From: Homalodisca vitripennis
Taxonomy: Eukaryota > Arthropoda > Insecta > Hemiptera > Cicadellidae
Reading direction: 5' to 3'
DNA length: 64,000 nucleotides
NCBI RefSeq assembly: GCF_021130785.1
Contig: NC_060207.1
Location: 2,006,501-2,070,500 of the forward strand
The position numbers and the translations under genes were made by a program. The notes beneath the pieces were generated by a model. The model made no database searches. It was given only the letters and a program-made list of their open reading frames with translations, and was not told the origin of the DNA. Every line of letters begins with the position of its first letter. Within the stretch, counting starts at the first letter, position 1. Below are positions 3,716 through 49,630 of this stretch, in pieces.

Positions 3716-4083
3716 TTTGATTTGGTATCGTTTACAACAATCATTAAAAACATAGCAAGCCTAATAAAAGTAAACATTGGTACAAACCTGAATTCCAGGA
3801 TATAAAAAATAAACTACTTGACGTGGACTATTTATACCGATTGACCAATGTCCTACTGTTAAAAATAGATTAAATCGATTGAAAACTCATTATAAACATA
3901 ACATATTTGGGAAAATTATACTAATTTATACATTGATCGGAGTTCTAATAAATGCAAAGCAGTCTGGTATCTAATCGAGACATGAATGTTCATTTCAAAA
4001 TAGACCTATTGTTGTAGCTCAGATTAGAAAGACGAGGAAGATGCTTACAAATTTAATGAGAAGCACAGATAAAAAAAATTAAA

Positions 4084-4356
4084 CCATGGATTTCGGAAGA
4101 GTTGGTAAGGGGCATTAGGAAAAGGGATGAAATAAGCAAACTCCTCAAAAAACAGCCATTCAATCTGAATCTAAGAAAATACTACATAGAATTGAGAAAC
4201 AGATTGAATTCGAAAATTAAATCAGCAAAATTTAACTATTACACATCAAAAATTATCAGTAGTAAGAATAATCCGAAACTTTTTTGGCAAATAACAAATG
4301 AATTATCTGGGAGGGTAAATAAAAAAACAGTTTCCCATTACACAATTTACAGGTGA
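4084..4356 (+). pseudogene. LINE C ORF2, pre-RT linker segment
   Basis: A frame beginning PWISEELVRGIRKRDEISK and running through LFWQITNELSGR matches the conserved linker upstream of RT in APE-type LINEs, where a 'PW..' motif is followed by basic helices and 'FW..IN'. The frame closes at 4356 and the RT resumes in another frame near 4470. So there is at least one frameshift or indel in between. Confidence 0.72.
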
Positions 4357-4569
4357 TAAAACAATGAACTGGGACTCTGACCTGAAACTGCAGTTTCGAC
4401 AGGTGGCTGAAGAATTTAAAATAATTATTTTGCACAAGTAGGTTACAATTTAGCTCGGGCTATTGACTCGAGCGGTCCACCTGTCGTTGATAACAATGAC
4501 TATACGGTTAACACAGAATTCACAATTCACACTATCACTGAGACAGAACTTCACCGGTACGTTACTAGC

Positions 4570-4990
4570 ATGCATGGTGGCTCAACTCCGGGGTATGATT
4601 GTATATCCGCGTCCCTCTTGATTGAAAGTTATCATTTCCTCTGCATTCCGCTTCTTCACATAGTTAATTTAAGTATACGTACAGGCAAATTTCCAGATGT
4701 TTTCAAGATCGCCAAAGTCATTCCATTATTTAAAGCGGATGACGTTACTCTGATGTCAAACTACAGACTGATTAGCCTGTTAAGTGTATTTTCCAAAGTC
4801 TTGGAGAAGGTAGTTAAAGACCAATTAGTCTCTTATTTAGAAGAGAATGATATATTAAGTGACTGTCAATTCGGGTTTAGAAAATCTAAGAATATCGCAG
4901 ATGCTGTTTTTAATATCTGTAAGAGTCGGAACGAAGCAATGACATCTAACAAAAAATATTTATTGGCATTCCTCGATTTAGCCTATATAT
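4570..4990 (+). pseudogene. LINE C ORF2, N-terminal half of reverse transcriptase
   Basis: Would copy element RNA into DNA at the target site. Visible RT landmarks in order: STPGYDCISASLL (motif 0/1 region), GKFPDVFKIAKVIPLFK (motif 1), SNYRLISLLSVFSKVLEKVV (motif 2, NYRPIS-like), CQFGFRKSKN (motif 3, QFGFR) and LLAFLDLA (motif A, first catalytic Asp). Downstream of LDLA the frame stays open to 5223 but no longer reads as RT: the KAFD continuation, VPQG, YADD and thumb are all absent. So the RT is cut near 4987 by a deletion or by another insertion. Not functional. Confidence 0.85.
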
Positions 4991-6136
4991 ATTTTATACC
5001 GAACAATATTATTTTAACATCTTATTTCCCTAAGAAAATTATTTTTGAATTAATGGGACTCATTCTCTCACGCACAGGTGCTATGCACCTATGTGAGGAA
5101 ACATTTCTACAATCACTAGAGCATTTCCACAATAAGTATTTAAGGGTGCGCTCTACCACAGGCCAGAAATCGCAGGACGATGTTTCAAAAATCCGCTTGG
5201 AGCGCTGGCAAAATCGGTTGTAGGGAGGGCAATGAGTAGTTGCTGTGGAAGGGATCGGAACTTACCGAGCGCCTCCGACATTTGCCGAGCGGGGGACCCG
5301 AGCCAGGTGCTCGACGTCCGACTCACACACGTGCCGGAGCGCACAGCTTCGTTTTTAACAGGGATGGGCTAGTAGGCCTTTCACTCTTCAGCCACTTTAC
5401 CCACGCCACATGCGAATAAAGCAGACTATGCTTTATTCACATTAGTCTGCCCCTATATACTGACAGTAAATGGACACAAAGATACACATGAAAACTATCG
5501 CTAAACATATATAAAATATTGTAGTATAATTTAGGCAAAACATGATACGTAAAATATTATAGAAAAAATCAGACTAGGAGTGGCTTCCTTAAAATGTTAC
5601 ATGTGAATAACATTACATGACACTTTCACTTTTATAACAGTACATGTTTTAGATTTGTTAAGACTGCGTGTACCACAGGCCAGAGATCGCAGTATCGGGA
5701 CTACGGAGCATCTCAGTTATTTGCCGAAAGAAAATTCGTTCGGTGGCGTACACTCGTAACAACGCACTCGCGCCACGTAGTGTGGAGATTGGCTAAATCA
5801 GTATGAAACTGTAACCGGTACTTTTCCTACAGTTACTCGTTGGTACAACATACTTTTATTATTATGGAATAAAACGTTTTAGTAAAATATATTTTATTTT
5901 TGTTAATTTAAATTCGGTTTACTGAAATATTTGAAAACGAACGTAATCATTCCAGTGATATTGTCATGTCAGAGTGTCTACCGATCTGGAATACGTGGAA
6001 TAACTGGGCAAGGCAGGAATTGTTATGAAAACCATGGAAGATTTAAATAATTTTAATGTTATCAACAAAACTAACATAATTTTATTAATTCTTTGATACA
6101 TAAATTAATCCAGTCGTATTACCTGATTGAAAAATT
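4991..6136. other. Unassigned sequence with a GC-rich patch and a shared 22-bp motif
   Basis: 5220-5345 is distinctly GC-rich (CGAGCGGGGGACCCGAGCC). A 22-base motif with one mismatch occurs at 5154-5175 and 5671-5692 (TACCACAGGCCAGARATCGC followed by AG). 5400-6136 is otherwise AT-rich with no gene recognised. The open frame on the minus strand across 5153-5344 has no protein-like features that I recognise. Confidence 0.5.
5414..5438. other. Short perfect hairpin
   Basis: Ten-base arms GAATAAAGCA and TGCTTTATTC flank a five-base loop. The arm sequence contains AATAAA on one strand. Role unknown. Confidence 0.6.
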
Positions 6137-9582: not shown

Positions 9583-9711
9583 ATGAAGTTCAATGCGCAT
9601 TTCCATCACAAAACCCGTAAATAAAGTGCATATCAGCGTATTCTCCAGTAGTGAACTCCATGGCAGTCTACACTTGGCAAAATTGAGCAGAAAAATAGTT
9701 TATTGGAGGTA
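9583..9711. other. Short spacer before the 3' end of LINE A
   Basis: No recognised feature. Plausibly the pre-insertion flank of LINE A. Confidence 0.4.
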
Positions 9712-9887
9712 GAAGTAAATAAATAAATAAGGTCTTTATTTAGCAAGCGTCCATCAGTACAAAAACTGTTTTTCATGAAAACTCTTGTCAGACATACAGA
9801 ACACATGGAGAACAATAACGTAAACCATAAAATAAACGTAAAACACTAAAGTATACAAACTAAACTAACCTGATGCATATGCATGGG

Positions 9888-10515
9888 TCAGGCAAACACC
9901 ACCTTCACACTCCCCTTAAATTTCTTACAGCTATAACTTTTTAAAGTGGGTGGCAAAGCATTGTATTTCTTTGGTCCAAAGTAACTAAAACCCTTTTTCC
10001 CCGTTTCCAGCTTTGTCTTTGGTAGGTGCAATAGGCTGTTCTGACGGGTACTACGCACGTTAATTTCTTGCCTGAATAACAGCTTATTCCTGAGGTATTC
10101 AGGTTTTCCCGTCTGAAGAATTTTGTGGACCAGATTGACGGTTTGCAAGTCGGAGACACCCATGATAGACAACACCTTAGCATTTAATCTGTACTCGCTG
10201 ATGTGGTCGAATTTTTTCAGATTGTAAACGAATCTCAGTGCTCTGTTCTGCAGACGAGTAAGTATCATCAAATTTTCCTGAGTCAGACAACAAGCAAAAG
10301 CTGGAAGAGCATAATGTATAGCAGGAAATATTGTTGACCGAACAATTTCCAGCTTGGAAGATTCTGGCAAAATTGTGCTTAATCTGTAAAGGGCCTTTAA
10401 TCTCATTGTCACTTTTACATATAGCTTTGACATGATTGGAAAAATCGAGTTGGGGGTCAATAGTAACACCAAGAACCTTTAGACTATTACTTGCCATCAA
10501 AGGCTTACCGTCCAC
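9888..10515 (-). pseudogene. LINE A ORF2 C-terminal (thumb and post-RT) region
   Basis: Continues the RT frame immediately after an in-frame TGA at 10522-10524. It reads LKVLGVTIDPQLDFSNHV, the conserved LGV.ID..L.F..H block of LINE RT thumbs. Near 10440-10470 the frame shifts, and the rest (LKALYRLSTILP, FPAIHYALPAFACCLTQENL, LTRLQNRALRFVYN, GPKKYNALPPTLKS) continues in a second frame to a stop at 9888. The RLQNRALR and YNALP phrases are typical of the C-terminus of CR1/Jockey-group ORF2 proteins. One stop and one frameshift make this part non-functional. Confidence 0.88.
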
Positions 10516-10521
10516 AAATAT

Positions 10522-12117
10522 TCACCGTTCAGCGCAACTATTCACTGACTGACTACTCGAAGATATCCGGTCTACAAGCATCACAGAACATTTATTAGAA
10601 TTCAATAGCAAACCATGATCGTCTGACCATTTCTTTACACTCACTAAATCAGTACTGACATGACGGACAGCCTCAGCCGTTTCTGAGGGTTTAAAAGAAA
10701 TCAATAGTTGTGAATCATCCGCGTAGGAATGCAAAGAACAGTGACTTGAGTGATCTTTCAAATCTGCTGTGTATATAAGAAAGAGAATCGGTCCTAAGCA
10801 ACTGCCTTGAGGAACACCGACGAACCTAGGAAGTGCTGTCGATAACTTCCCGTTTACCTTTGTACGTTGCGTAGGCCCAGACAAATAAGATGAAAACCAT
10901 CTAACTGAGATATCATCAAACTGGTAAAATCTTAGCTTTGCTAGCAACAAATCAAAATTCACCGAGTCAAAGGCTTGGGAGAAGTCAAGGGAAGTAATCA
11001 TACTCTCTAGGCCCTTATCTTTAGCTGAAATAATTTCATCAATGACATTGAGAAGTGCTGAGCAAGTGCTAAAACCCTGCCTAAATCCTGACTGTGTTTC
11101 AGGAAGTAATCCTTCAGATTCCAAATATAAGACTAGTTGTTCTGCCACAACTTTTTCCAGTATTTTGGAGATGACAGGAAGGATTGAGATAGGTCGAAAG
11201 TCTGAAACTAAGGTAGGATTGAGATTCTTTGGCACAGGAACCACCACGCTCTGCTTCCAACTAGAAGGGAAATTGCCAGTTTTCAATGATACATTGACCA
11301 GGTGAGAAACTGCTCCAATGCAAAAGGGACTCAGGCCTCTAACCATTTTTATGGATATTCCATCCACACCAAATGCAGTACTTGTGATACTGTTCATCAA
11401 CTCCTTTACCTTACATTCAGATACAGGAGAAAAAGTGAAAGTAGAATCTATCCCTGCACATTTGTTACTGTTAAAGAATTTCAGTTTTTCCGTGCTCACT
11501 GTCCCGTTACAACCCATAGTTGAGAAGTAATGATTTAAATCTTCTAGTTCAACAGAATGGTCCTTTTCATCTACTGACCTCATCAAACCACCATCTCTTA
11601 AAGTAGCCCAGAAAGTTTTAGAGTTTTTTGTATTCAAAGTCTCAGTAAAATACTTCCTTTTCGCTGATCGTATGGCCACATTGAGTGCATTACGAGCCCT
11701 GCAGTATGCATTCCTACAAATCTGTGTTTTCAGAGACAAATAAGTATGTTTACAATTATTATTCTTTTTTGTAAGGTATGCTATGTTTGAATCTCTCCAA
11801 GGAGCTTTCTTTCTTGTTATTCTTTTTCTCACCAAGGGTGCACATTCATCAAACACTTGGACTATTTTTGATGTTAACACATTAGCGATATCATCCACGT
11901 TTCGATGAGTCATTATGTTATCCCAGTGTATATTGGAAGCAACATCAATAAGCGTATCACCGTCAAAATCTCTAAAATTCCTATATGTAATAAACTTTTC
12001 TTTGGATTTGGATTTTTTGCAAGGCACGTCACAGTAAGTCAACCTGTGGTCGGATATCTGAGGGCTGGGACACACACCTTTTGGCTCAGCAGACACAGCC
12101 TCATAAATTATTTTCAA
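10522..12117 (-). pseudogene. LINE A ORF2: endonuclease remnant plus reverse transcriptase
   Basis: A 531-codon frame. Residues 20-30 (QISDHRLTYCD) are the very end of an APE endonuclease (SDH motif); the upstream catalytic part is missing. Residues 105-170 are the linker (KKAPWRDSNI, SKTFWATLRDG). RT landmarks follow: GNFPSSWKQSVVVPVPK (281-297), SDFRPISILPVISKILEKVV (305-324), SGFRQGFSTCSALL (343-356), SLDFSQAFDSV (376-386, catalytic Asp378), GVPQGSCLGPILF (434-446) and SYADDSQLL (464-472, catalytic Asp pair). The RT core is therefore intact up to a TGA after residue 531. The annotated start is only the first Met in the open stretch and is not the element's real ORF2 start. Confidence 0.93.
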
Positions 12118-12129
12118 TGAGTGAAAAAT

Positions 12130-12843
12130 AAGTCATTTCCCTTCCGATTCAAGTGTGTCCCATCACGCGCTAGATGATGATATTTAACCACAGCGCTAGT
12201 GTCAAGGAACTCGACGTTGAAATTATTGCACATCAGCATTAGCTACTCATTAAAATAAAAAAAGGGCTTTCTGATTGATATCCTTCCTTGTCAGAACACT
12301 ATTTACAATTATGATAGAGTTTGGGAATTCTTGTTTTGCTGTACTCAACAGGTCAGCCATAGAGTGAAGCACCGTGCGCTTACCTTAACCACCATTATAC
12401 CCAGGCCCCCCATTATAACCATGAACAAGGTTATTTGTACCAACAAGAAGATATATTATTTTAGGTTGTGCAGATTTATATTTCCCAAGCTTATCTTTAA
12501 TATGAGAAATTTTAGCTCCCGGATTAATATCCACGATAGCCCCACCATCTGCACACCTCTTCCCTGAGTAACGCAGAAGTGAGTCCCCAATCAACAAAAC
12601 ATTAGACATAGGAGTTTCCTGAATCTTCTCATTTACTTGTATTGTATACTTTGGACCGCTTATGTCACTAGAAACCTTTACTCTTACATCTGAGTGCAGG
12701 ACATTGCGATGAGTAAAGGTTTCTTTACCCACTTTAGAACTACTTTGATTTAGTACATTCACAGAAACCCTAGGTTTGTTTTTTTTGTCGTATGAACGAC
12801 TTTTGTTGCCATTTACCAGATGAATTGCAAATTGTTGTATCAT
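12130..12843 (-). pseudogene. LINE A ORF1, C-terminal SGNH-hydrolase (esterase) domain
   Basis: SGNH/GDSL hydrolases act on ester bonds; in CR1/L2-type LINE ORF1 proteins such a domain is established. Here block I is NVLLIGDSLLRYSG (GDS at 12580-12588, nucleophile Ser), block III is LLVGTNNL (12430-12441, normally GTND), and block V is DGTHLN (12147-12164, catalytic Asp-His) within LARDGTHLNRKGNDLFF. Blocks I and III are in one frame that ends at 12385 after a short GYNGG duplication. The segment from GKRTVLHSMADLL to ALFLF and then block V lie in other frames, so at least two indels separate them. The frame overlaps the upstream protease ORF at 12770-12843; the crossover is the A8 run at 12779-12786. 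Confidence 0.85.
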
Positions 12844-14275
12844 TTATACAGGTACTCTCCAACTCAAGGGCTTGAAAACGGTTTGTAAATTTTACAATGT
12901 GGTTACTTGGGAGGGAATTAACATTTGTATTTTTGGTACGTATACTCTTAGGTTTTACTTTTACCCATTTCCCTGATTTTTTAGTTGGTGGAGCACCATC
13001 ACAATTGATATTGCTAGAACTTAAAACTTGGTCTATACTACGAACATTGACAGCGGATGGTGAACAGTTTGGGACATGATTGGGCCTTGCAGTGGTTGGC
13101 TCAGATGGAGCTACCTCAGACTTATTTCTTATCAAAAGGCCACTAGGACCGTCGACAAACAGTGCATACCAGTTACTGAACAAACTCCCAGCACTTGGCA
13201 TAGTTTTTTGGCAAAAGCCCTCGTTTATGAACTTTGCATTGACCAGTACACTTAGGCCACATTCATAACTATTTTTTTGTTGAGTGCAACTCAACTCATG
13301 GAAACTGTTTGCCTTGAAGCCCAGTTTAATTGTTACTGCTTTTGCAACTACTGAATTTATGCCAAGCAATGAATCCAGATGGTAAACCAAGTGACTAGAA
13401 ATGTCAACAAACAGCAAGCTCAAGTGCGAACCAGTATCTTGCTGTAAAGTAGCTGTGTTATTACTAACACACAAAAACGCATAATCAAAGCTGTTAAACA
13501 TAAGCTCACCTAAAAGAGCTTTTACATCATTACAAGTACCATGGTTTACAACCTGAGTTACAGAGGGACCCATAAAAACTACCCTGGATAAGCTGTCTTT
13601 GTTATTACTACTAAAAGACTGAAAGAAGGTATCGAGAATTGTGTCATCCACCCATATACTTTTAAGCCAGGATTTTTCCTCAGCTTCTTTAACTGAGGAT
13701 TTTAGATCAGTTACAAATCTAGTCAATTCTAGTTTTTGATTATTACTAACCGCAAGGTCTGACTTAAGTTTAGCAATAATTGAATCATTCTCGCCAACTA
13801 AAGACTGCAATGATAGACATTCATCAGACTTATTTTTTAATTTAGTTTTTACATCAGTAAGGCTAGTCAGCATTCCACTGTTATTTTTTAAAACAACGTC
13901 TTTTTCTTCACAGATGATATCCAGTTCGTTAAATGAAGCGTTGAGATCAGATTGCCGCTGTTGTTTTTCTCGTTCCAGTCGGGATTCGAGAGTCAAGATG
14001 TTGCACTGAAGGTCCTTAATAACTGCCCCAGAATTCTTTTCAGAAGCTAAAGCGTTGTTCAAACACTGAAGTAAGCTGGAGATATTCAGCTGAAGGTCTG
14101 ACAAAGTGATGTGAGGGTGATTAGCCTCTAACTTTTTCAAAACGAGGCAGATATTTGTGAGAAGAGTTTCTGTGTCAACGTCCAGATTGTCTGTGTTGGC
14201 AAACGCCTCCTCAATTTGATTGGATGCATAATTAGACATGCCCCGCGTTAACACCATTTTATTGTATTGACACAA
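12770..14275 (-). CDS. LINE A ORF1, N-terminal part: coiled coil plus Ulp1/SENP-like (C48) cysteine protease
   Basis: A 501-codon open frame. Residues about 1-80 are a helical N-terminus; about 85-200 form a long coiled coil rich in E, K, L and N, likely for trimer or oligomer assembly as in other LINE ORF1 proteins. Residues about 203-350 read as a Ulp1/SENP protease: SWLKSIWVDDTILDTFF (the W..D..I..F entry motif), H284 in SHLSLLFVD, D301 in YHLDSL, Q333 and C339 in TQQKNSYECGLSVLVNAK. The H-to-D spacing (17) and Q-to-C spacing (6) equal those of SENP8 and yeast Ulp1. Residues about 380-460 are a polar, basic linker (TKKSGKWVKVKPKS). Likely substrates would be ubiquitin-like conjugates or the element polyprotein; this is inference. 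The frame stops just after an A8 run, and the SGNH domain follows in the next frame. ATG at 14275 or the internal MVLTRG/MSNYAS Mets could be the start. Confidence 0.85.
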   Translation of the reverse strand: MCQYNKMVLTRGMSNYASNQIEEAFANTDNLDVDTETLLTNICLVLKKLEANHPHITLSDLQLNISSLLQCLNNALASEKNSGAVIKDLQCNILTLESRLEREKQQRQSDLNASFNELDIICEEKDVVLKNNSGMLTSLTDVKTKLKNKSDECLSLQSLVGENDSIIAKLKSDLAVSNNQKLELTRFVTDLKSSVKEAEEKSWLKSIWVDDTILDTFFQSFSSNNKDSLSRVVFMGPSVTQVVNHGTCNDVKALLGELMFNSFDYAFLCVSNNTATLQQDTGSHLSLLFVDISSHLVYHLDSLLGINSVVAKAVTIKLGFKANSFHELSCTQQKNSYECGLSVLVNAKFINEGFCQKTMPSAGSLFSNWYALFVDGPSGLLIRNKSEVAPSEPTTARPNHVPNCSPSAVNVRSIDQVLSSSNINCDGAPPTKKSGKWVKVKPKSIRTKNTNVNSLPSNHIVKFTNRFQALELESTCINDTTICNSSGKWQQKSFIRQKKQT

Positions 14276-14475
14276 ACACTTTAACTATCGTAACAACAAT
14301 TCTCCTCTGAGTGAGGGACAGGAAGCCGCCAAACAAGCAGGTATTAGTATTACAGCAAAGAAGTTGAAGGCGTAATCAAAATCACTCGCAGCGGCCAGAA
14401 TGTCTATTAGACGTCGATATATGACGAGCTGCAATCCGCACGCCGCATGGGTAGGTAGGTTGCGGCCAAGAAATT
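14276..14475 (-). other. Probable LINE A 5' UTR
   Basis: GC-richer than the flanks (GCGGCCAGAATGTC, GACGTCGATATATGACGAGC, CCGCACGCCGCATGG). It contains a partial internal echo: GCAAAGAAGTTGAAGGC at 14352-14370 and GCCAAGAAATTGAAGGC at 14464-14480. Internal promoter activity would be expected for a LINE, but none was shown. The boundary is a guess from composition. Confidence 0.45.
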
Positions 14476-14480
14476 GAAGG

Positions 14481-14503
14481 CTCTCTAATAAAGTATTAGA
14501 GAG
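14481..14503. other. Perfect 10-bp hairpin at the LINE A 5' edge
   Basis: CTCTCTAATA and TATTAGAGAG flank the loop AAG. It lies where GC-rich LINE sequence gives way to AT-rich repeats. Confidence 0.6.
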
Positions 14504-14549: not shown

Positions 14550-14785
14550 AGTGTTAAAATTCGGTTTAAAAACTATAAATATAACAAAGTTAAAATTCAG
14601 GTCAACAACTATTAAAAATAATAAATATAACAAGGTTTAAATTCGGGTTAAAAACTATGAAGAATAATAAATATAACAAATTTAAAATTCAGGTTAAAAA
14701 CTATAAATATAACAAAGTTAAAATTCAGGTCAACAAGTATTAAAAATAATAAATATAACAAGGTTTAAATTCGGGTTAAAAACTG
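14550..14785. repeat. AT-rich tandem repeat, about 64 bp subunits in a 128 bp period
   Basis: The string AAAATTCAGGTCAACAAC with following TATTAAAAATAATAAATATA recurs about 128 bp apart (near 14593 and 14721). A related half-unit (TTAAATTCGGGTTAAAAACT) recurs between them. About 3.5 half-units are visible. Confidence 0.8.
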
Positions 14786-14849
14786 ATTAAATAAACGTTC
14801 CTTTGATTGTTTATTTTAAAACAATCAATTTATTTATTATTTGCGGATG

Positions 14850-34866: not shown

Positions 34867-37800
34867 AAATAATCGCATACCTACTTATCATATCTAAAGT
34901 ATGAAATTTGTTATATACAACGACTAGAATATGCCTCAGCAGCGGCTGTTGACTACAATTACGGCTGTGCCATTGTACACTAGACAATAGTATGTACCTA
35001 ATAATCGCATACCTACTTATCATATCTAAAGTATGAAATTTGTTATATACACCGACTAGAATATGCCTCAGCAGCGGCTCTTGACTACAATAAGGCTGTA
35101 CCATTGTACACTAGACAATAGTATGTACCTAATAATCGCATACCTACTTATCATATCTAAAGTATGAAATTTGTTATATACAGCGACTAGAATATGCCTC
35201 AGCAGCGGCTCTTGACTACAATAAGGCTGTGCCATTGTACACTAGACAATAGTATGTACCTAATAATCGCATACCTACTTATCATATCTAAAGTATGAAA
35301 TTTGTTATATACAGCGACTAGAATATGCCTCAGCAGCGGCTCTTGACTACAATTACGGCTGTGCCATTGTACACTAGACAATAGTATGTACCTAATAATC
35401 GCATACCTACTTATCATATCTAAAGTATGAAATTTGTTATATACACCGACTAGAATATGCCTCAGCAGCGGCTCTTGACTACAATTAAGTCTGTGCCATT
35501 GTACACTAGACAATAGTATGTACCTAATAATCGCATACCTACTTATCATATCTAAAGTATTTAATTTGTTATATACAGCGACTAGAATATGCCTCAGCAG
35601 CGGCTCTTGACTACAATAAGGCTGTGCCTTTTTACACTAGACAATACTATGTACCTAATAATCGCATACCTACTTATCATATCTAAAGTATGAAATTTGT
35701 TATATACAGCGACTAGAATATGCCTCAGCAGCGGCTCTTGACTACAATTACGGCTGTGCCATTGTACACTAGACAATAGTATGTACCTAATAATCGCATA
35801 CCTACTTATCATATCTAAAGTATTTATTTGTTATATACAGCGACTAGAATATGCCTCAGCAGCGGCTCTTGACTACAATAAGGCTGTGCCTTTGTACACT
35901 AGACAATAGTATGTACCTAATAATCGCATACCTACTTATCATATCTAAAGTATGAAATTTGTTATATACACCGACTAGAATATGCCTCAGCAGCGGCTCT
36001 TGACTACAATAAGGCTGTGCCATTGTACACTAGACAATAGTATGTACCTAATAATCGCATACCTACTTATCATATCTAAAGTATGAAATTTGTTATATAC
36101 AGCGACTAGAATATGCCTCAGCAGCGGCTCTTGACTACAATAAGGCTGTGCCATTGTACACTAGACAATAGTATGTACCTAATAATCGCATACCTACTTA
36201 TCATATCTAAAGTATGAAATTTGTTATATACAGCGACTAGAATATGCCTCAGCAGCGGCTCTTGACTACAATTACGGCTGTGCCATTGTACACTAGACAA
36301 TAGTATGTACCTAATAATCGCATACCTACTTATCATATCTAAAGTATGAAATTTGTTATATACAGCGACTAGAATATGCCTCAGCAGCGGCTCTTGACTA
36401 CAATAAGGCTGTGCCATTGTACACTAGACAATAGTATGTACCTAATAATCGCATACCTACTTATCATATCTAAAGTATGAAATTTGTTATATACAGCGAC
36501 TAGAATATGCCTCAGCAGCGGCTCTTGACTACAATTACGGCTGTGCCATTGTACACTAGACAATAGTATGTACCTAATAATCGCATACCTACTTATCATA
36601 TCTAAAGTATGAAATTTGTTATATACAGCGACTAGAATATGCCTCAGCAGCGGCTCTTGACTACAATAAGGCTGTGCCATTGTACACTAGACAATAGTAT
36701 GTACCTAATAATCGCATACCTACTTATCATATCTAAAGTATGAAATTTGTTATATACAGCGACTAGAATATGCCTCAGCAGCGGCTCTTGACTACAATAA
36801 GGCTGTGCCTTTGTACACTAGACAATAGTATGTACCTAATAATCGCATACCTACTTATCATATCTAAAGTATGAAATTTGTTATATACAGCGACTAGAAT
36901 ATGCCTCAGCAGCGGCTCTTGACTACAATAAGGCTGTGCCATTGTACACTAGACAATAGTATGTACCTAATAATCGCATACCTACTTATCATATCTAAAG
37001 TATTTAATTTGTTATATACAGCGACTAGAATATGCCTCAGCAGCGGCTCTTGACTACAATTACGGCTGTGCCATTGTACACTAGACAATAGTATGTACCT
37101 AATAATCGCATACCTACTTATCATATCTAAAGTATGAAATTTGTTATATACACCGACTAGAATATGCCTCAGCAGCGGCTCTTGACTACAATAAGGCTGT
37201 GCCATTGTACACTAGACAATAGTATGTACCTAATAATCGCATACCTACTTATCATATCTAAAGTATGAAATTTGTTATATACAGCGACTAGAATATGCCT
37301 CAGCAGCGGCTCTTGACTACAATAAGGCTGTGCCATTGTACACTAGACAATAGTATGTACCTAATAATCGCATACCTACTTATCATATCTAAAGTATGAA
37401 ATTTGTTATATACACCGACTAGAATATGCCTCAGCAGCGGCTCTTGACTACAATAAGGCTGTGCCATTGTACACTAGACAATAGTATGTACCTAATAATC
37501 GCATACCTACTTATCATATCTAAAGTATGAAATTTGTTATATACAGCGACTAGAATATGCCTCAGCAGCGGCTCTTGACTACAATAAGGCTGTGCCTTTG
37601 TACACTAGACAATAGTATGTACCTAATAATCGCATACCTACTTATCATATCTAAAGTATGAAATTTGTTATATACAGCGACTAGAATATGCCTCAGCAGC
37701 GGCTCTTGACTACAATTACGACTGTGCCATTGTACACTAGACAATAGTATGTACCTAATAATCGCATACCTACTTATCATATCTAAAGTATGAAATTTGT

Positions 37801-38091
37801 TATATACACCGACTAGAATTTGCCTCAGCAGCGGCTCATGACTACAATAAGGCTGTACCATTGTACACTAGACAATAGTATGTACCTAATAATCGCATAC
37901 CTACTTATCATATCTAAAGTATGAAATTTGTTGTATACAGCGACTAGAATTTGCCTCAGCAGCGGCTCTTGACTACAATTACGGCTGTGCTATTGTACAC
38001 TAGACAATAGTATGTACCTAATAATCGCATACCTACTTATCATATCTAAAGTATGAAATTTGTTATATACACCGACTAGAATATGCCTCAG
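34866..38091. repeat. 131/132-bp satellite, block A, about 24.5 monomers
   Basis: Monomer landmarks: TAATCGCATACCTACTTATC, ATATCTAAAGTATGAAATTT, ATGCCTCAGCAGCGGCTCTT, and then either CAATAAGGCTGTGCC (131 bp) or CAATTACGGCTGTGCC (132 bp). Across much of the block the two types alternate, giving a 263 bp dimer (chance frames at 36118 and 36381 are exactly 263 apart). Other variant sites are ATACAGCGACT/ATACACCGACT and CCATTGTAC/CCTTTGTAC. Minus-strand frames of 99 codons recur because of this structure and are not genes. Confidence 0.98.
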
Positions 38092-38784
38092 AAAAATTTG
38101 TGAAAGACAAGAGAAAGAAAACACTCTTTTAATTACATTCTGATGGTTTAGTTTAGCCCACCGTCTCTGAAAACATTTTAGTTATTTAATTTTTCTATAA
38201 TTTGATAACGTATCCAAATTGTATTATTCCACGTGTATGTGTTTACAACGAGTTAACCCTATAAAAAATTACCTTAAAGAGTACATGATTTCAACAACAT
38301 ATTTTAGTAAATCGTAAGCTAAAAAAAACAAAACAATTATTAAACAAATGTACGACTTGTTGTGTTATATAAATTTTATTGAATTAAAATAATTAATGGA
38401 TTTGCAATGTTTACGTGCAACCGCAGTGAAGCCTGTTACGACACGTAATTTAAGTACTTCCACCATATAGATATTTGTGTTAATCTATAACCTGTTTTAA
38501 CAACGTAATATTATGACGTACTTACTGATTCTCCTATTACTAATAGTATTCTATAAAAGTACAAAATCTCTTTAAATATTTCCTAATGCTATATTTTTCC
38601 TGCTACTATTGTTTATAAATAATTACGTTGTTCACTTTCACAGTATATCGGTTTAGGCGGGTTTCGCTATTTTCATTATGACAATTCGTGAGCTTTAATC
38701 GTTCAACTTATTATTGGTCATGGAAAGGGGTTTTATAAAACACATGGAAACCAATAACAATGTTGTATCAGATAATGAAGATAA
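38092..38784 (+). repeat. Captured unit, copy 2
   Basis: About 690 bp, nearly identical to copy 1. It is joined on the left to satellite at GCCTCAGAAAAATTTGTGAA, a junction also present at copy 3 (43505), so copies 2 and 3 descend from one embedded ancestor. Confidence 0.95.
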
Positions 38785-40270
38785 ATAATCGCATACCTAC
38801 TTATCATATCTAAAGTATGAAATTTGTTATATACAACGACTAGAATATGCCTCAGCAGCGGCTGTTGACTACAATTACGGCTGTGCCATTGTACACTAGA
38901 CAATAGTATGTACCTAATAATCGCATACCTACTTATCATATCTAAAGTATGAAATTTGTTATATACACCGACTAGAATATGCCTCAGCAGCGGCTCTTGA
39001 CTACAATAAGGCTGTACCATTGTACACTAGACAATAGTATGTACCTAATAATCGCATACCTACTTATCATATCTAAAGTATGAAATTTGTTATATACACC
39101 GACTAGAATATGCCTCAGCAGCGGCTCTTGACTACAATAAGGCTGTACCATTGTACACTAGACAATAGTATGTACCTAATAATCGCATACCTACTTATCA
39201 TATCTAAAGTATGAAATTTGTTGTATACAGCGACTAGAATATGCCTCAGCAGCGGCTCTTGACTACAATTACGGCTGTGCCATTGTACACTAGACAATAG
39301 TATGTACCTAATAATCGCATACCTACTTATCATATCTAAAGTATGAAATTTGTTATATACAGTGAATAGAATATGCCTCAGCAGCGGCTCTTGACTACAA
39401 TAAGGCTGTGCCATTGTACACTAGACAATAGTATGTACCTAATAATCGCATACCTACTTATCATATCTAAAGTATGAAATTTGTTATATACAGCGACTAG
39501 AATATGCCTCAGCAGCGGCTCTTGACTACAATAAGGCTGTGCCATTGTACACTAGACAATAGTATGTACCTAATAATCGCATACCTACTTATCATATCTA
39601 AAGTATGAAATTTGTTATATACACCGACTAGAATATGCCTCAGCAGCGGCTCTTGACTACAATAAGGCTGTGCCATTGTACACTAGACAATAGTATGTAC
39701 CTAATAATCGCATACCTACTTATCATATCTAAAGTATTTAATTTGTTATATACAGCGACTAGAATATGCCTCAGCAGCGGCTCTTGACTACAATAAGGCT
39801 GTGCCTTTGTACACTAGACAATAGTATGTACCTAATAATCGCATACCTACTTATCATATCTAAAGTATGAAATTTGTTATATACAGCGACTAGAATATGC
39901 CTCAGCAGCGGCTCTTGACTACAATTACGGCTGTGCCATTGTACACTAGACAATAGTATGTACCTAATAATCGCATACCTACTTATCATATCTAAAGTAT
40001 TTAATTTGTTATATACAACGACTAGAATATGCCTCAGCAGCGGCTCTTGACTACAATAAGGCTGTGCCTTTGTACACTAGACAATAGTATGTACCTAATA
40101 ATCGCATACCTACTTATCATATCTAAAGTATGAAATTTGTTATATACACCGACTAGAATATGCCTCAGCAGCGGCTCTTGACTACAATTACGGCTGTGCC
40201 ATTGTACACTAGACAATAGTATGTACCTAATAATCGCATACCTACTTATCATATCTAAAGTATGAAATTT
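38783..40270. repeat. 131/132-bp satellite, block B, about 11 monomers
   Basis: Same monomer as block A, with both CAATAAGG and CAATTACGG types. The last monomer before 40270 begins to diverge (AATATATACAGCCGACTATG) and passes into the scrambled patch. Confidence 0.97.
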
Positions 40271-42130
40271 AATATATACAGCCGACTATGTAACTCACTG
40301 ACTCAGCAGGGCTCTTGACTACAATAAGGCTGTGCCACTTCTAGAAGTGCTGGACAATAGTATGTACCAAATTTTGCACGCACGTAGCTTTTACCTTCAT
40401 ATCTAAAGTATGAAAAGTCTGAACACCGGACTATTTTTTACTTTTAAACGGCCCTTGACTACAAAAAATTGTGCAACACTTTCGCACTTTTCACTCTTGC
40501 AGGCATTTTCTTTGAAGCCCGATAGCGGGCGAACCGTTAGAGCTAGCTCGGATCTGAGGAAAATCGTTAGTCGGGAATGGAGTGATCTACAAAAAAGGTC
40601 AAGTGGATTTTTGCTCTATCTCTATTGGTTTGGCCGCAAAACGCATTTATGTGTAAAATTTTCGCAATTTTCACTTAATCATTTACCTCCAGGCTCGATA
40701 GCCGGCGAACCGTTGTGTCGCAGCTCAAAACATAATTTTCAAATGGGATTTAGGAAAACGGCGCGATCTACAAAAAAGGTCAGTAACATTTTACCCTATC
40801 CTTAATGGTTTGGCCAAAACGCATTTAAATGTGTCGCTTTTTCAAGTTTTACTTCATAAATTTTGTTTCTGGGTTCTATTAATGGCAAATCTTTAAAGTT
40901 AGGGTAAATTAAAAAGCGGATTTTAATACAAAATAAGACGATCTACAAAAAAGGTCTAGTGACTTTTTGCCCTATCTCTATCGGTGTGCCAATAAATGCT
41001 AATATTTTGTCATTTTGACGTGGAAATGTTTTTACTGGAGTACGATATTGGTTATAACCCGTATGATCCTAGCTTGACTACTTAAACACTAGACAATAGC
41101 CTAATAATAGGATACCTACAAAAAAGGTTCAGTAGCTTTTTGTCGTATACCTTTCCGTAAGCGACTAGTTATATGCTCTCAATGGCACAATCTTTGCCAT
41201 TGTGAATTGGGTATTTACCTAAGGGTTTTTATTTTTTTCGAATAGAATTGGTATATACAATTGAATAACAGTTTCATATTGAATTTATATTAATTCGTAA
41301 ACCAGTGACTAGTGTACAGTGGCTAACAGAGGCATCGCGAATTCGCATAGCGTTAGCAAAGGTTATCATATTTTAATTTTTTTTAACATTATTTAATTCA
41401 GCGACTATAATATATCAGATTTTGTTTCTTTTTTATAACCATACGGTACCATTGTATCAATCTAGACATTTTATGTACCTAACAATCGCATACCACCTTA
41501 TCATATCTAAAGTATGCTAGCTTGTAATATCCGACTAATTATACAGCCGCATATGTAACTCACTGACTGATAGGGTATACTAGACAATATTAACCTAATT
41601 CTAGAAGTACTGGAAACACCAAAGTATTTGCACGCACGTAGCTTGTTAACCTTCAAGAATATGCCTCAGCAAGGCTCTTGAAAACCGGATATTTTTACTT
41701 TGTAAACCCCTCAGACAATAATTGGCAAACCTAATAATCGCACTTTTCACTCTTGCAGCCTTTTTGTTGAATACAGCGACTAGCGAATATGCCTCAGTGC
41801 GGCTTTTGACTACACGGCTGTGCCTCTTTACTGACTAAACCACAGGTCGGAGATAATAATCCGACAGCACAATCCTTCTTCATATCTAAAGTATGAAATT
41901 TTACACCGACTAGAAAAGGTCCAGTCAGCATTTTGACTACTAATAAGGCTGTGCCTGTGTACAGCCGTAAAACGCTCTCAAAGTCAAAAGTTTGGGTCAA
42001 ATCCAGAAAATTAAACTATGATATACAACTATAATGTCTGACTTTAGTTACCATACAATTCTTTTTGTACACTTCTATTTTATTTCGCGAATAATCACAT
42101 ACCTTAACTGTTCTACGATATCCATTGATT
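40271..42130. repeat. Scrambled patch: satellite pieces interleaved with a second repeat
   Basis: Recognisable 131-bp-satellite phrases (CTTGACTACAATAAGGCTG, ATATCTAAAGTATG, ATGCCTCAGCA, ACCTAATAATCGCA) are broken every 15-40 bases by foreign phrases. Several of these occur twice (ATGTAACTCACTGACT at 40288 and 41549, TTCTAGAAGT at 40338 and 41600, TTTGCACGCACGTAGCTT at 40374 and 41629, CGCACTTTTCACTCTTGCAG at 40482 and 41739). 41380-41520 and 42000-42130 are diverged monomers. The pattern could be real shuffling or a consensus error where two sequences were merged. Confidence 0.75.
40520..41150. repeat. Diverged tandem repeat, 171-181 bp period, four copies
   Basis: The anchor GATCTACAAAAAAGGTC recurs at 40584, 40765, 40940 and (as GATACCTACAAAAAAGGTTC) 41111. 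Each is followed by CAGTAGCTTTTTGCCCTATC-like text; between the first three copies TATTGGTTTGGCC and AAAACGCATTTA also recur. It is unrelated to the 131 bp monomer but mixed with it at both edges. Confidence 0.85.
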
Positions 42131-42666: not shown

Positions 42667-42683
42667 CGAGCCGAAGGCGAGTT

Positions 42684-43508
42684 TGTTAATATACAGCGAC
42701 TGAAATATGCCTCAGCAGGGGCTCTTGACTACAATTATGACTGTGCCTTTGTACACTAGATAATAGATAATGAAGTACCTAATAATCGCATACCTACTTA
42801 TCATATCTAAAGTATGAAATTTGTTATATACAGCGACTAGAATATGCCTCATCAGCGGCTCTTGACTACAATAAGGCTGTGCCTTTGTACACTAGACAAT
42901 AGTATGTACCTAATAAACGCATACCTACTTATATCTAAAGTATGAAATTTGTTATATACAGCGACTAGAATATGCCTCATCAGCGGCTCTTGACTACAAT
43001 AAGGCTGTGCCTTTGTACACTAGACAATAGTATGTACCTAATAATCGCATACCTACTTATCATATCTAAAGTATGAAATTTGTTATATACACCGATTAGA
43101 ATATGCCTCAGCAGCGGCTCTTGACTACAATTACGACTGTGCCCATTCTACACTAGACAATTGTATGTACCTAATAATCGCATACCTACTTATCATATCT
43201 AAAGCATGAAATGTGTTATATACACCGACTAGAATATGCCTTAGCAGCGGCTCATGACTATAATAAGGCTGTACTATTGTACACTAGACAATAGTATGTA
43301 CCTAATAATCGCATACCTACTTATCATATCTAAAGTATGAAATTTGTTGTATACAGCGACTAGAATATGCCTCAGCAGCGGCTCTTGACTACAATTACGG
43401 CTGTGCCATTGTTACACTAGACAATAGTATGTACCTAATAATCGCATACCTACTTATCATATCTAAAGTATGAAATTTGTTATATACACCGACTAGAATA
43501 TGCCTCAG
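42684..43508. repeat. 131/132-bp satellite, block C, about 6 monomers
   Basis: Same monomer as block A, with more variants (GATAATAGATAATGAAG insertion near 42758, missing CAT in CTTATATCTAAAG at 42928, CATCAGCGG). It ends at the GCCTCAGAAAAATTTGTGAA junction with the third captured unit. Confidence 0.96.
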
Positions 43509-44214
43509 AAAAATTTGTGAAAGGCAAGAGAAAGAAAACACTCTTTTAATTACATTCTGATGTTTTAGTTTAGCCCACCGTCTCTGAAAACATATTTTAG
43601 TTATTTAATTTTTCTATAATTTGATAACGTATCCAAATTGTATTATTCCACGTGTATGTGTTTACAACGAGTTAACCCTATAAAAAATTACCTTAAAGAG
43701 TACATGATTTCAACAACATATTTTAGTAAATCGTAAGCTAAAAAAAACAAAACAACATTATTAAACAAATGTACGACTTGCTGTGTTATATAAATTTTAT
43801 TGAATTAAAATAATTAATGGATTTGCAATGTTTACGTGCAAACCGCAGTGAAGCCTGTTAAGACACGTAATTTAAGTACTTCCACCATATAGATATTTGT
43901 GTTATTCTATAACCTGTTTTAACAACGTAATATTATGACGTACTTACTGATTCTCCTATTACTAATAGTATTCTATAAAAGTACAAAATCTCTTTAAATA
44001 TTTCCTAATGCTATATTTTTTTCCTGCTACTATTGTTTATAAATAATTACGTTGTTCACTTTCACAGTATATCGGTTTAGGCGGGTTTCGCTATTTTCAT
44101 TATGACAATTCGTGAGCTTTAATCTTTCAACTTATTATTGGACATGGGAAAGGGGTTTTATAAAACACATGGAACCAATAAACAATGTTGTATCAGATAA
44201 TGAAGATAAATAAT
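43509..44214 (+). repeat. Captured unit, copy 3
   Basis: About 705 bp. It differs from copy 2 by small insertions (AACAACATTATT, TTTTTTCCTG, GTGCAAACCGC) and by scattered substitutions. It passes into satellite block D at ATAATCGCATACC. Confidence 0.95.
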
Positions 44215-44676
44215 CGCATACCTACTTATCATATCTAAAGTATGAAAATTTGTTATATACAACGACTAGAATATGCCTCAGCAGCGGCTGTTGACTACAA
44301 TTACGGCTGTGCCATTGTACACTAGACAATAGTATGTACCTAATAATCGCATACCTACTTATCATATCTAAAGTATGAAATTTGTTATATACACCGACTA
44401 GAATATGCCTCAGCAGCGGCTCTTGACTACAATAAGGCTGTACCATTGTACACTAGACAATAGTATGTACCTAATAATCGCATATACTACTTATCATATC
44501 TAAAGTATGAAATTTGTTATAATATACACCGACTAGAATATGCCTCAGCACCGGCTCTTGACTGCAATAAGGCTGTGCCTTTGTACACTAGACAATAGTA
44601 TGTACCTAATATTCGCATACCTACTTATCATATCTAAAGTATGAAATTTGTTATATACATACACCGACTAGAATAT
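44212..44676. repeat. 131/132-bp satellite, block D, about 3.5 monomers
   Basis: Same monomer family. It is interrupted at GACTAGAATAT (44666-44676) by the 5' end of LINE B. Confidence 0.96.
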
Positions 44677-44877: not shown

Positions 44878-45345
44878 ATGAAGTTTACCATTGAACTTTC
44901 CCAAAAAGGTAAACCGTGTCTTCATTACGATGGATATAAATATAGAGAACACCGTACTCTTTGTAAATGGAGACATAAAACTGGCGCTGTTTGGGCCGCA
45001 CGTGTGGTGCATCTGTACGGACAGACCAAAATCGAACTGAACTGACTGTGTGCAATAAAAAAACACAGTGGTACGCACCCTGTTACTATGCACACATTAT
45101 CACAATCACCTGCCACCCCTCGCCCAGCATCTTCCTGCTCCTCAATGACACCAACGTTATCACCTCTCATTTCGGAGCTGATTAATAAAAAGAAATGCTA
45201 TACTGTAGAGACTCAAACTGATGACGACAGCCTTAGATCTAAAGATCAACTTCTGGCTAGAATATCCGAATTAACTGACAGACAGTCTAGCTTGATCTCG
45301 TATATCCAGGAAATTAAAAAGGCTCCTGGAGATAGCAGAAGATAA
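44878..45345 (+). pseudogene. LINE B ORF1, N-terminal FLYWCH-like zinc finger and coiled-coil start
   Basis: ATG at 44878 opens a 55-codon frame that stops at TGA 45043-45045; the same frame then stays open to 45345. The first 70 codons read FTIELSQKGKPCLHYDGYKY, then CKWRHKTGAVWAARVVH, and after the stop KHSGTHPVT. KG.P.L...GY.Y, WR, AR and a terminal H.H-like GTHP are the landmarks of a FLYWCH finger (C2H2 zinc binding, DNA or protein contact), although one expected Cys is missing. Next come a Ser/Pro-rich spacer and a helical stretch LLARISELTDRQSSLISYIQ. FLYWCH fingers are known in Mutator-like DNA transposons. Degenerate, so moderate certainty. Confidence 0.6.
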
Positions 45346-45409
45346 ACCCAATAAAAGTACAGCTAAAATCAGTAACGGTAGGTGAGGAGAATGAAGATAT
45401 CAAGCTGCT

Positions 45410-45673
45410 GTGACAACAGTACTCAAAACCGAGCCGCTAGGTGAATCTTCGAGAATTTGTAGAGATTGTAACGTAGCGCAGATCAAAATGGCTGAATTTG
45501 AAGAAATTAACTTAGGATTTCAGACTGAACTTGTTATTGTTAATGAAAAATATAATGACCTCCTCAAATTGCACGAAGAGCTTCTTCTTACAGTTGGTAA
45601 ACGGGAAAGGAACGAGACAGTCTTGTTAGTGAGCCGTTGGAGATTCATTCTGCCAATAATTTCTCTTCCCTAA
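45410..45673 (+). pseudogene. LINE B ORF1, coiled-coil segment
   Basis: Frame with RICRDCNVAQIKMAEFEEI and LVIVNEKYNDLLKLHEELLL, a charged helical region typical of the oligomerisation part of LINE ORF1 proteins. It is offset from the preceding frame by an indel near 45345-45410. No His-Asp-Gln-Cys protease pattern occurs here, unlike LINE A. Confidence 0.65.
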
Positions 45674-45703
45674 ATGATCTGCCGGTCCTAACATCTGAGT
45701 TAA

Positions 45704-46450
45704 ATGAGAGTTTCACCCGTCTCACAGTCGAAAAGAAGAAGAAAAAGAAGTAAAAACAAAATGAAGAAGAATATAAACATGCCACAGGAACAAGTCATTG
45801 CACCGGGGAACCCACAAAAAAACTATATGTATTCTCGGACAGTCACGGAAAGGATTTATGTCAGCACCTTGAAGGATTTGTGTGTAATAACTACACGGTG
45901 TTTGTTTGTTCTAACCCTGGCGCTCAATCTAATCATATATTGAGAAATGCCAAGGAAATGTCAAGTGAAATGACAGAGACAGATATAGGTGTAATATTTG
46001 TAGGAACAAATGATGTATCATCTTGTACACCACGCAATAATCGTCCTGCAAAACAGTTACCAAAACTTATAACTCAATTTGTCCAAACAAACAAACACAC
46101 GCAATGGATAATAGTGCCGATACTCCATAGACACGATCTACATTGGAGGAACTAATCTAAACTATCAAATAAATCACATAAATAGTAAACTTAAAAAACT
46201 CTATGGTACTTGGGTTGTCGATATAAAAGACTTTGGAAGAAGATTTTTTACCAACCACGGACTCCATCTTAATAAATACGGAAAAATTGAAATAAGCAGA
46301 AGAATTTCGAACTGTGCACTGCAAAATACAAAAGTAAACTCTTCAACACAGTCAGAACCAAGAGATATAGCCACTTCGCAGCCTATAAATGAGTCTCTTC
46401 CTGTCCTACGAGAAATACCCAAATTATCTAACCGGTCACTAACAGCATGA
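45704..46450 (+). pseudogene. LINE B ORF1, basic linker and SGNH-hydrolase domain
   Basis: A lysine/arginine-rich linker (SKRRRKRSKNKMKKNINMPQ) is followed, after a shift at an A7 run near 45816-45822, by the esterase. Block I is VFSDSHGKDL (from 45829), block III is IFVGTNDVSS (about 45998-46025), and block V is TNHGLHLNKYGK (HGLHLN at 46256-46273). These are the canonical SGNH blocks in LINE form. Block V is in a different frame from I and III, which end at a stop at 46155. The Ser, Gly-Thr-Asn-Asp and His residues expected for catalysis are all still legible. Confidence 0.85.
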
Positions 46451-46489
46451 TGTCCTCGACGCCTGCCTCAGCTCCTCTGAGGATGGACA

Positions 46490-47460
46490 ATGGAACAACT
46501 CTTCCTTCTCCACCAGTATCCATGCAACAGTATGACACCTACTCTGATGCCCTCAAGAACCACCTGCAACAGTAGTCATGCGGCTGCGACGGAGCCATCT
46601 GCAATTTCAACTGCAAGTGATGTTTCTGAAAAGGACTTTGAAAATCAGCGCACTTCACATCTTCAATCATTGAGTACTCAATGCGTAGGCCTACCTGATC
46701 CAGATGGAGTTTGCAACACCAATTCAAAGAAACATTTTTATAGTAAACGTAAAAGAGCCTTTAACACATATAAAGGATTGTCATCGCCCCTGCAAAGTGT
46801 CTCAAGCTCAGGAATTTTAACTATCGTACACCCAAAATGCGCCAATCAGCAACTAATAAAACTCCAGGAGCTGGAGTTACTCTGTGACGAGCTCAAACCG
46901 GATATTCTGCTTTTGTCCGAACACGGTTTTTAATGACAAAAATATTGATCTCTTTGTTATAGAAAACTACACACTTGCCAATAGTCTTAATAGGACCCAC
47001 TTTAAAGGAGGCGGCGTTGCTGGTTTTTGTCAAACCATGTTTTGAATTTAAAAAGTTGGATTGTAAAGTGGAGGAAAGGTATTTGAGCTCTCGGGGTATT
47101 TCTGTTAGTCTCAGTAATGGTCGCTCAATCTCGGTTTATGTGGTTTATAGATCTCCAGAAAGCTCGGAAAGCAAATTCTTTGAATATCTTGAGAATTTTC
47201 TAGTAGAGTTAACATCAAAAAATCGACAATTTTCTGATAGCTGGAGATTTCAATATTAACGTATTGAATCGGGGTTGTAGCAAAACCAGAAAGTTCCGAG
47301 ATTTACTGGCTAGCTTCAATCTGGGATGGTTGGTGAATTCACCTACGAGAGTGTTTGGTGGTTCTCAGACAGCTATAGATAACGTTGTGACCGACATACC
47401 CGGGACGTTTCGTGTCCGTTGTAGCCACTGCCATATCTGACCATGATGCGGCAATTAATC
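46490..47460 (+). pseudogene. LINE B ORF2, APE-type endonuclease
   Basis: Would nick target DNA to prime reverse transcription. Landmarks: LTIVHPKCANQQLIKLQELE and KPDILLLSEHGF (N-terminal part, Asn and Glu positions), THFKGGGVAGF near 46990-47030, VYRSPESSESKFFEYLENFL (about 47140-47200), LIAGDFNINVLN (GDFN, about 47235-47270), DNVVTD (about 47380) and ISDHDAA (about 47435). All classical APE motifs are present in order, but across three frames with a stop at 46931-46933 and frame changes near 47020 and 47230. The first 300 bases of the open stretch at 46490 are ORF2 leader rather than endonuclease. Confidence 0.88.
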
Positions 47461-47939
47461 AAAATCAGTCAACAGGTTAAAAAAATACAAGACGTCACTA
47501 TATATAGAAGAGATACACGTCCTTCTAACATTAACCTGTTAAACAAACGGTTGAATCGAGAACTTTGGCAATTCAAAAAAACCCAAAATTCCTCGGAAAT
47601 GTTCGATTATTTAAATGATTGCTTCATTTACAATCTAAATGTATACTGTCCATTAAAAAAAATTAATTATAAAGAGAAAAGAAAAACTAATTGGATTACT
47701 CCAGGAATAATTGTTTCTAGAAATAATTTACGGTTGTATTGGGAACAATCAAAACTATCAACAAGTGTAGAATTCAAAATTTTGTAAAAAAGTATAAATT
47801 AATTTATCGAAAGGTTATTAAAAGCGGCCAAAGCCTATGAATTTAATAAAGCAATTAAGGTAACAAAAAATGTACAAAAAACCGCTTGGGGTATAATTAA
47901 TAAGCACAAAACTAAGGCACCCAATAAACCTATAGAAAT
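47443..47939 (+). pseudogene. LINE B ORF2, linker between endonuclease and RT
   Basis: Frame with IYRRDTRPSNINLLNKRLNR, then KRKTNWITPGIIVSRNNLRL, the 'W.T..I..S...L' linker motif, to a stop at 47787. 47790-47939 continues in other frames (KKYKLIYRKVIKSGQSL, NKAIKVTKNVQKTAWGIINK). The 'TAWGIIN' phrase is the conserved tryptophan motif before RT. Confidence 0.78.
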
Positions 47940-48965: not shown

Positions 48966-49630
48966 TGTTGGACGACAAGGTCCTGGATGAAGTTGACTGT
49001 ACGAAACTCCTGGGAATATACCTCGATAGAGGGTTGACTTGGAGGAACCATGTGGACAGTGTTTGTGCGAAACTATCAAGTAATATTTATCTCTTAAGAG
49101 GTCTTGCCGAATACTGTTCAGATAAAATAATGAAAATTTGCATATTACGGTTTGTCCACCCACATTTATCCTACGGTATTATATTGTGGGGTGGCTGTTC
49201 AAATGGCGACTTCCACAGACTTTTTGTCTTACAGAAGAGAGCTATTAGAATTATTGCTAAATTAAACTTTAGAGAGTCGTGTAGAAATTCATTTAGGGAG
49301 CTCAAAATACTAACATTGCCATGTTTGTATATACTGGAGACTACTGTACATTGTCGGTTTAAGAGCCAAATGGTTCGAGGTCGTGACATTCACAACTACG
49401 ATACGAGGTATCGAGAAAATGTCAGACCTGCTCAGCAGCATAGATTGAGAAGATACGAGCAACTTCCTTCTCAAGCCGGCATAAAGTTTCTAAATGGGCT
49501 CCCTGAAGAAATAAAATCAATAAATGATCTAAATCGGTTCAAAATTACACTGCGACACTTTTTAGTGTCTCATTCTTTTTATACAGTTGGTGAATTCATG
49601 GACCATCTCACTAGCTCCAATGTGCGGTAG
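48914..49630 (+). pseudogene. LINE B ORF2, thumb and C-terminal region
   Basis: A 238-codon open stretch. The true overlap with RT is after CSKTNYMVFG. Landmarks: TKLLGIYLDRGLTWRNHVD (LG..LD..L.W..H thumb motif), HPHLSYGIILWGG (YG...WG), RLFVLQKRAIRIIAKL (LQKRAIRII) and a C-terminus ending VGEFMDHLTSSNVR at TAG 49628-49630. This is the best-preserved part of the element. The QKRAIRII phrase is typical of Jockey/CR1-group ORF2 C-termini. Confidence 0.9.

Follow-up and report, generated by a model that had tools for sequence, protein, structure and literature searches.

Organization of the LINE A copy

The window, which is the whole stretch of DNA analysed, comprises 64,000 nucleotides of Homalodisca vitripennis (assembly GCF_021130785.1, contig NC_060207.1, positions 2,006,501 to 2,070,500 of the forward strand). 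A broken copy of a LINE, here called LINE A, lies on the minus strand and contains frames of an ORF1 and of a reverse transcriptase (RT). Positions are given within the window, and proteins numbered P0001 to P0025 are relatives of the window ORF1. The features of LINE A were as follows:

9700..14490 (-): LINE A, broken APE-type LINE copy with ORF1 and RT frames; both ends approximate
12773..14257 (-): first frame of ORF1, an open frame of 495 codons with N-terminus, coil-like region, C48 protease and linker
13661..14033 (-): coil-like region, about residues 76-199; weak coiled-coil PDB matches (0.0045-0.0055)
13190..13660 (-): SENP8-like C48 protease domain, residues 200-356; SENP8 match 8.4e-12
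13424..13426 (-): catalytic His278, with Leu as the next residue in the window copy; from an alignment with SENP8 and 23 proteins
13373..13375 (-): catalytic Asp295; same alignment of 24 sequences against SENP8
13277..13279 (-): catalytic Gln327; same alignment
13259..13261 (-): catalytic Cys333; same alignment
12100..12606 (-): SGNH esterase domain split between two frames and interrupted by an in-frame stop; approximate boundaries, 69% identity to P0002
12025..12063 (-): last APE endonuclease residues (ISDHRLTYCDVP) fused to the ORF1 tail; from comparison with P0012 and P0014
10525..12024 (-): ORF2 frame coding for the reverse transcriptase; RVT_1 6.2e-33, 95% identity with P0012 across 369 aa
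9888..10478 (-): probable ORF2 C-terminus; open frame, same strand

The ends of LINE A were placed by eye. A TTTA-type tail lies near 9720 at the 3' end and coding-like sequence stops near 14490 on the 5' side; no target-site duplication was established for this copy. Directly upstream of the 5' end there is an AT-rich tandem repeat with units of 46 to 128 bp (14554-14793). The best protein match of the window ORF1 was P0001, also from H. vitripennis, with 96% identity over 99% of the query. The ORF1 tail of the window copy leads into ISDHRLTY and then into the RT. The ORF2 frame is disrupted again near 10.5 kb and continues in later frames on the same strand; the probable ORF2 C-terminus had no Pfam match. 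In comparison with P0012 and P0014, nearly the whole APE endonuclease is gone from the window copy, which is not autonomous because the rest of that enzyme is missing. With its frames broken and the endonuclease nearly all lost, this copy is probably inactive.

Relatives of the window ORF1

Protein searches, each of which scored the 8000 candidates with the most shared words, yielded 25 relatives (14, then seven more, then four more). Seven of these encoded C48 and the SGNH type seen in the window (type 1) in a single frame: P0002 (753 aa), P0003 (809 aa), P0004 (788 aa), P0009 (755 aa), P0011 (741 aa), P0015 (876 aa), and P0016 (812 aa). P0010 and P0017-P0025 contained C48 together with a second type of SGNH (type 2). 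P0012 and P0014 contained small pieces of ORF1 and an endonuclease, and partial or altered models accounted for P0001, P0005, P0006, P0007, P0008, and P0013. The start of an endonuclease suspected by eye at the end of P0015 was unsupported by PDB, by Pfam and by comparison with P0012 and P0014. In H. vitripennis, eight of the 25 relatives carry the name 'SUMO1 sentrin specific peptidase 8'.

Viral contigs contained no relative when P0002 was the query, and matched in the C48 region only with query A2 (two loci) and with the ORF1 profile A1 (five loci). Among genome contigs, the A1 profile matched 51 loci (L008-L058), again in the C48 region only. The titles of these bacterial loci named Bradyrhizobium, Mesorhizobium, Ensifer, Sinorhizobium, Rhizobium or Microvirga, and the loci are presumed to be NopD-like, judging from the PDB match described below.

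The C48 protease domain

The original prediction placed the catalytic residues H284, D301, Q333 and C339 of a Ulp1/SENP-type protease in this ORF1. All four were present; counted from the ATG at 14257, and not from 14275 as before, they are H278, D295, Q327, and C333. The predicted spacings, 17 between His and Asp and 6 between Gln and Cys, were also recovered. Using phmmer with the window ORF1 alone, SENP8 was matched at 8.4e-12 over residues 200-356, a resemblance beyond chance. The Pfam comparison was divided: the window copy scored 18.4 bits for Peptidase_C48, below the cut-off of 20.7, whereas 10 of the 13 relatives scored individually were above it, the three below being P0010, P0017, and P0018. 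A profile built from 10 relatives and compared with PDB chains matched SENP8 at 86.5 bits (1.5e-23), NopD-type proteases at 71.2 bits, XopD at 25.6 bits, Ulp1 at 25.3 bits (4.9e-5), and SENP1 at 12.3 bits. By these bit scores the LINE C48 domain appears closer to SENP8 than to Ulp1 or SENP1.

Conservation of the active site was assessed in an alignment of 24 sequences (23 proteins and the window) against SENP8, from which P0012 and P0014 were dropped as they have no C48. The predicted tetrad was kept in the other copies, with His and Asp in 24 of 24 sequences and Gln and Cys in 23 of 23, the latter count leaving out P0008, whose gene model cuts the C48 domain; the alignment includes the near-duplicate rows window/P0001, P0007/P0015, P0011/P0013, and P0020/P0021. 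This conservation is somewhat selected for, because the relatives were found by similarity to the window ORF1 and only the top 8000 word-sharing candidates were scored. The entry Trp was kept in 22 of 23 sequences, with Leu in P0025 and P0013 uncounted since it is without the region. The residue directly after the catalytic His was Trp in 22 of the 24 sequences and Leu in the window and P0001. The active site kept by the intact relatives suggests that such elements use the protease, a type with which cells remove ubiquitin-like tags.

The SGNH esterase, coil-like region and linker

An SGNH esterase had been placed in the next frame after the protease. The domain does follow C48, but it occupies two further frames and not one: GDS and GTN lie in 12388-12843, and DGTHLN (about 12164-12147) lies in a third frame of ORF1. 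The in-frame stop in the window domain comes after NGG. Pfam assigned none of the window pieces given to it to a GDSL/SGNH family, and its GDSL families were under their cut-offs in every protein scanned. The window domain was recognised through relatives, the piece that aligned with P0002 being 69% identical, and the 10-relative profile matched 4c1b, the LINE ORF1 esterase of ZfL2-1, at 31.2 bits (8.1e-7). Because the Pfam GDSL families remained below cut-off, the SGNH call rests on the 4c1b profile match together with the motifs. A GY[ND]GG insert was present in the SGNH of the window (about 12385-12430) and in nine of nine type-1 proteins covering the site; 4c1b has a gap there. A full SGNH domain was present in 18 proteins, of which eight kept the Asp of the DxxH motif and 10 had another residue. 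The C48 residues are thus kept more strictly than the esterase triad.

For the coiled coil that was predicted ahead of the protease, the results were mixed. Residues 76-192 of the window ORF1 contain no Pro, but the heptad signal of the window was reached by 72 of 500 shuffles and was not significant; for seven relatives, between 6 and 163 of 500 shuffles scored as high as the sequence itself. A coiled coil in the N-terminal part of ORF1 is weakly supported. In the 21 pairs formed by the seven type-1 relatives, identity averaged 54.0% for C48, 55.8% for SGNH, 39.6% for the N-terminus and coil, and 22.1% for the linker. C48 and SGNH are the two best conserved parts of ORF1, a pattern that suggests purifying selection on both enzymes.

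Assignment to an APE-type LINE

The ORF1 is assigned to an APE-type LINE because parts of it are joined to an APE endonuclease in two gene models of H. vitripennis. P0012 combines an ORF1 linker 94% identical to window positions 12947-13201 with an APE endonuclease (28.3 bits, against a cut-off of 24.5) and with an RT whose region is 95% identical to that of the window. P0014 combines an ORF1 coil 88% identical to 13901-14098 with an APE endonuclease (29.8 bits, same cut-off), and a further 302 aa, 95% identical to the window, end where the RT starts. A weak MADF-like match (17.9 bits, cut-off 22) precedes the LINE sequence at the start of P0014. As P0012 and P0014 are predicted gene models, we infer from them the order of ORF1 and endonuclease in the genome. 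The restriction-like endonuclease that marks NeSL and Utopia elements was not what was found here: the enzyme is of the APE type in both gene models, and the window retains an APE remnant.

The single-frame relatives and the two gene models agree with the original prediction that C48 and SGNH occur together in the ORF1 of an APE-type LINE. Judged from these sequences, an ORF1 of an APE-type LINE with a coil-like part, C48 and SGNH is highly probable. P0019-P0025, with which no ORF2 was seen, would also be LINE ORF1s according to their shared C48-SGNH core.

N-terminal domains and a TARG1-like domain in relatives

Outside the window, the relatives were diverse at their N-termini. PHD-like fingers started P0019 (23.5 bits) and P0022 (21.4 bits), both below the cut-off of 24. 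A PWWP domain was found at the N-terminus of P0021 (43.3 bits, cut-off 25.6), and FLYWCH-like fingers started P0024 (17.8 bits) and P0025 (24.3 bits; cut-off 23.6). The C2 domain at the start of P0020 may be a gene-model fusion.

P0019, P0020, and P0021 contained, after the esterase, a domain resembling human TARG1/OARD1. TARG1 was matched at 1.3e-6 by the P0019 piece, at 0.0061 by whole P0021, and at 6.2e-10 by a P0019/P0021 profile; no macro family of Pfam matched this domain. According to PMC9411070, the catalytic residues of TARG1 are Lys84 and Asp125. Both positions (LITK and GCVRD) were kept in P0019 and P0021, the gene model of P0020 is without the second motif, and P0022 had neither TARG1 motif.

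Phylogenies of the C48 and SGNH modules

The trees of the two modules conflicted at two places, in topology tests for which the groups were named after the trees were seen. Among P0002, P0003, and P0004, the C48 data rejected P0003 with P0004 (p 0.007) and the SGNH data rejected P0002 with P0003 (p 1e-13). P0010 and P0017 were paired in the C48 tree with 99/99 support, and the SGNH data rejected this pair (p 0.0099). With one SENP8 and long branches in the C48 tree, the domain may stem from a host SENP8 or from another source. Module exchange is a likely source of these conflicts; alternatively, they may come from chimeric assemblies among the 'lgn' source entries. An ancient exchange of SGNH types within a single C48 lineage was considered and set aside, since a clade uniting the type-2 rows was not rejected by C48 (p-AU 0.145).

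Comparison with known systems

OTU-type proteases occur in Dualen/RandI LINEs. Ulp1-like cysteine proteases are described for NeSL and Utopia LINEs, where, according to PMC4640811, protease and restriction-like endonuclease belong to one protein with the protease N-terminal; the word 'esterase' is absent from that paper. LINE A shares with these elements a Ulp1-like protease in a LINE, and differs from them in being of the APE type, in carrying the protease in a separate ORF1, and in the resemblance of that protease to SENP8. The esterase-type (type IV) LINE ORF1s, such as that of ZfL2-1, have a coil and an SGNH esterase (PMC3905857 and PMC4120745). The ORF1 described here resembles them in its SGNH domain and possible coil, and contains a C48 protease between the two. 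In PMC4120745, 'protease', 'peptidase', and 'ulp' were absent, and in PMC3905857 'protease' occurred twice and 'peptidase' once, all in reference to other enzymes or assays.

Ginger1 DNA transposons have Ulp1, OTU and PHD domains and an integrase-like transposase core (PMC2836005). Like LINE A, these mobile elements carry a ubiquitin-like protease, which a PHD finger accompanies in one case; unlike LINE A, they have no reverse transcriptase. A LINE of H. vitripennis with a virus-like helicase in ORF1 has been reported (PMC5563155). It is comparable to LINE A in having an added ORF1 enzyme in the same insect, there a helicase and here a protease; the words 'protease', 'peptidase', 'ulp', and 'c48' are absent from that paper. 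SENP8 and the rhizobial NopD-type proteases gave the best C48 matches, and neither is part of a retrotransposon ORF1.

In open-access literature on LINEs and proteases, no APE-type LINE whose ORF1 combines C48 and SGNH came up among the papers listed, as far as their accessible text went. The element may be listed elsewhere, since Repbase reports and most subscription journals were outside this literature. Within the literature searched, the element would be the first example of an APE-type LINE that carries a ubiquitin-like protease.

Possible functions of the protease

The reading preferred here is an APE-type LINE ORF1 with a likely coil, C48 and SGNH, in which C48 would remove modifiers; its probability as a whole is put at roughly 0.5. 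In working copies, the ORF1 protein would coat the RNA of the element. The C48 domain would then cleave a ubiquitin-like modifier, presumably NEDD8, ubiquitin or SUMO, behind its Gly-Gly tail, on the element RNP or on nearby host proteins. Removal of the modifier could protect the RNP against turnover or silencing that depends on it. The esterase may serve in lipid or membrane binding, as proposed for other LINEs. Such a reading would open to test whether LINE RNPs come under the control of NEDD8, ubiquitin or SUMO, and whether elements resist it.

The LINE enzyme might instead cut ORF1p, for example the coil from the esterase, or free parts of the RNP, much as related proteases of clan CE do in some viruses. 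The position of C48 between two other modules, with a long and poorly conserved linker to the esterase, would suit such processing. However, the 24 sequences scanned had no Gly-Gly recurring at one place outside the esterase, and seven of them had no Gly-Gly at all, including P0017, P0020, P0021, and P0023, which all have both domains. The sequences lean against self-processing at Gly-Gly in comparison with modifier removal, although a cut at another sequence is possible, and processing of the element's own protein is, on the whole, improbable. A C48 domain that binds without catalysis, docking a ubiquitin-like modifier or only supporting RNP structure, is likewise assigned a small probability. 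It would fit the Leu after the catalytic His in the window and P0001, and also the adjoining SGNH domain, where loss of the DxxH Asp in 10 of 18 proteins indicates that the enzymes in these ORF1s can change. Yet the whole tetrad was kept wherever the region was present, which binding alone would not require.

Given the SENP8-type name carried by eight of the 25 proteins in H. vitripennis, the sequences could instead be host SENP8 genes, or fusions of a transposable element with such a gene, and not retrotransposon ORF1s. This is highly improbable: SENP8 chains in PDB are stand-alone and about 212 aa long, whereas the relatives carry C48 behind an N-terminal coil-like part and, if complete, ahead of SGNH, and the window and two gene models alike show the ORF1 next to endonuclease and RT. 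As a warning for annotation, part of the apparent SENP8 genes of H. vitripennis would be retrotransposon ORF1s.

Modifier removal, the preferred function, could belong to a broader scheme in which an insect LINE lineage has an ORF1 that acts as a multi-enzyme remover of host protein marks, countering silencing or repair signals of the host where the element inserts. The parts would be an N-terminus that reads chromatin (PHD-like or PWWP), a coil, the ubiquitin-like protease, the esterase and, in some, a TARG1-like hydrolase. The relatives with a TARG1-like ADP-ribose hydrolase and with PHD-like or PWWP domains would match this theme. As a whole, this scheme is speculative and rather doubtful.

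Other repeats in the window

A second LINE, LINE B, lies at about 44878-49630 (+) between stretches of a 131-bp satellite. It contained a FLYWCH-like start (18 bits, below the cut-off of 23.6), an SGNH ORF1, and similarity to endonuclease and RT. Used as a control within the window, LINE B had no match with the C48 parts of the 25 proteins. A third LINE fragment was found at 4060-5223 (+), with RVT_1 at 37.1 bits. Satellite arrays with 131-bp units were located at 34868-40337, 42682-43508, 44209-44659, and 49862-51471, and arrays with 123-bp units at 51476-57637 and 58585-63550.
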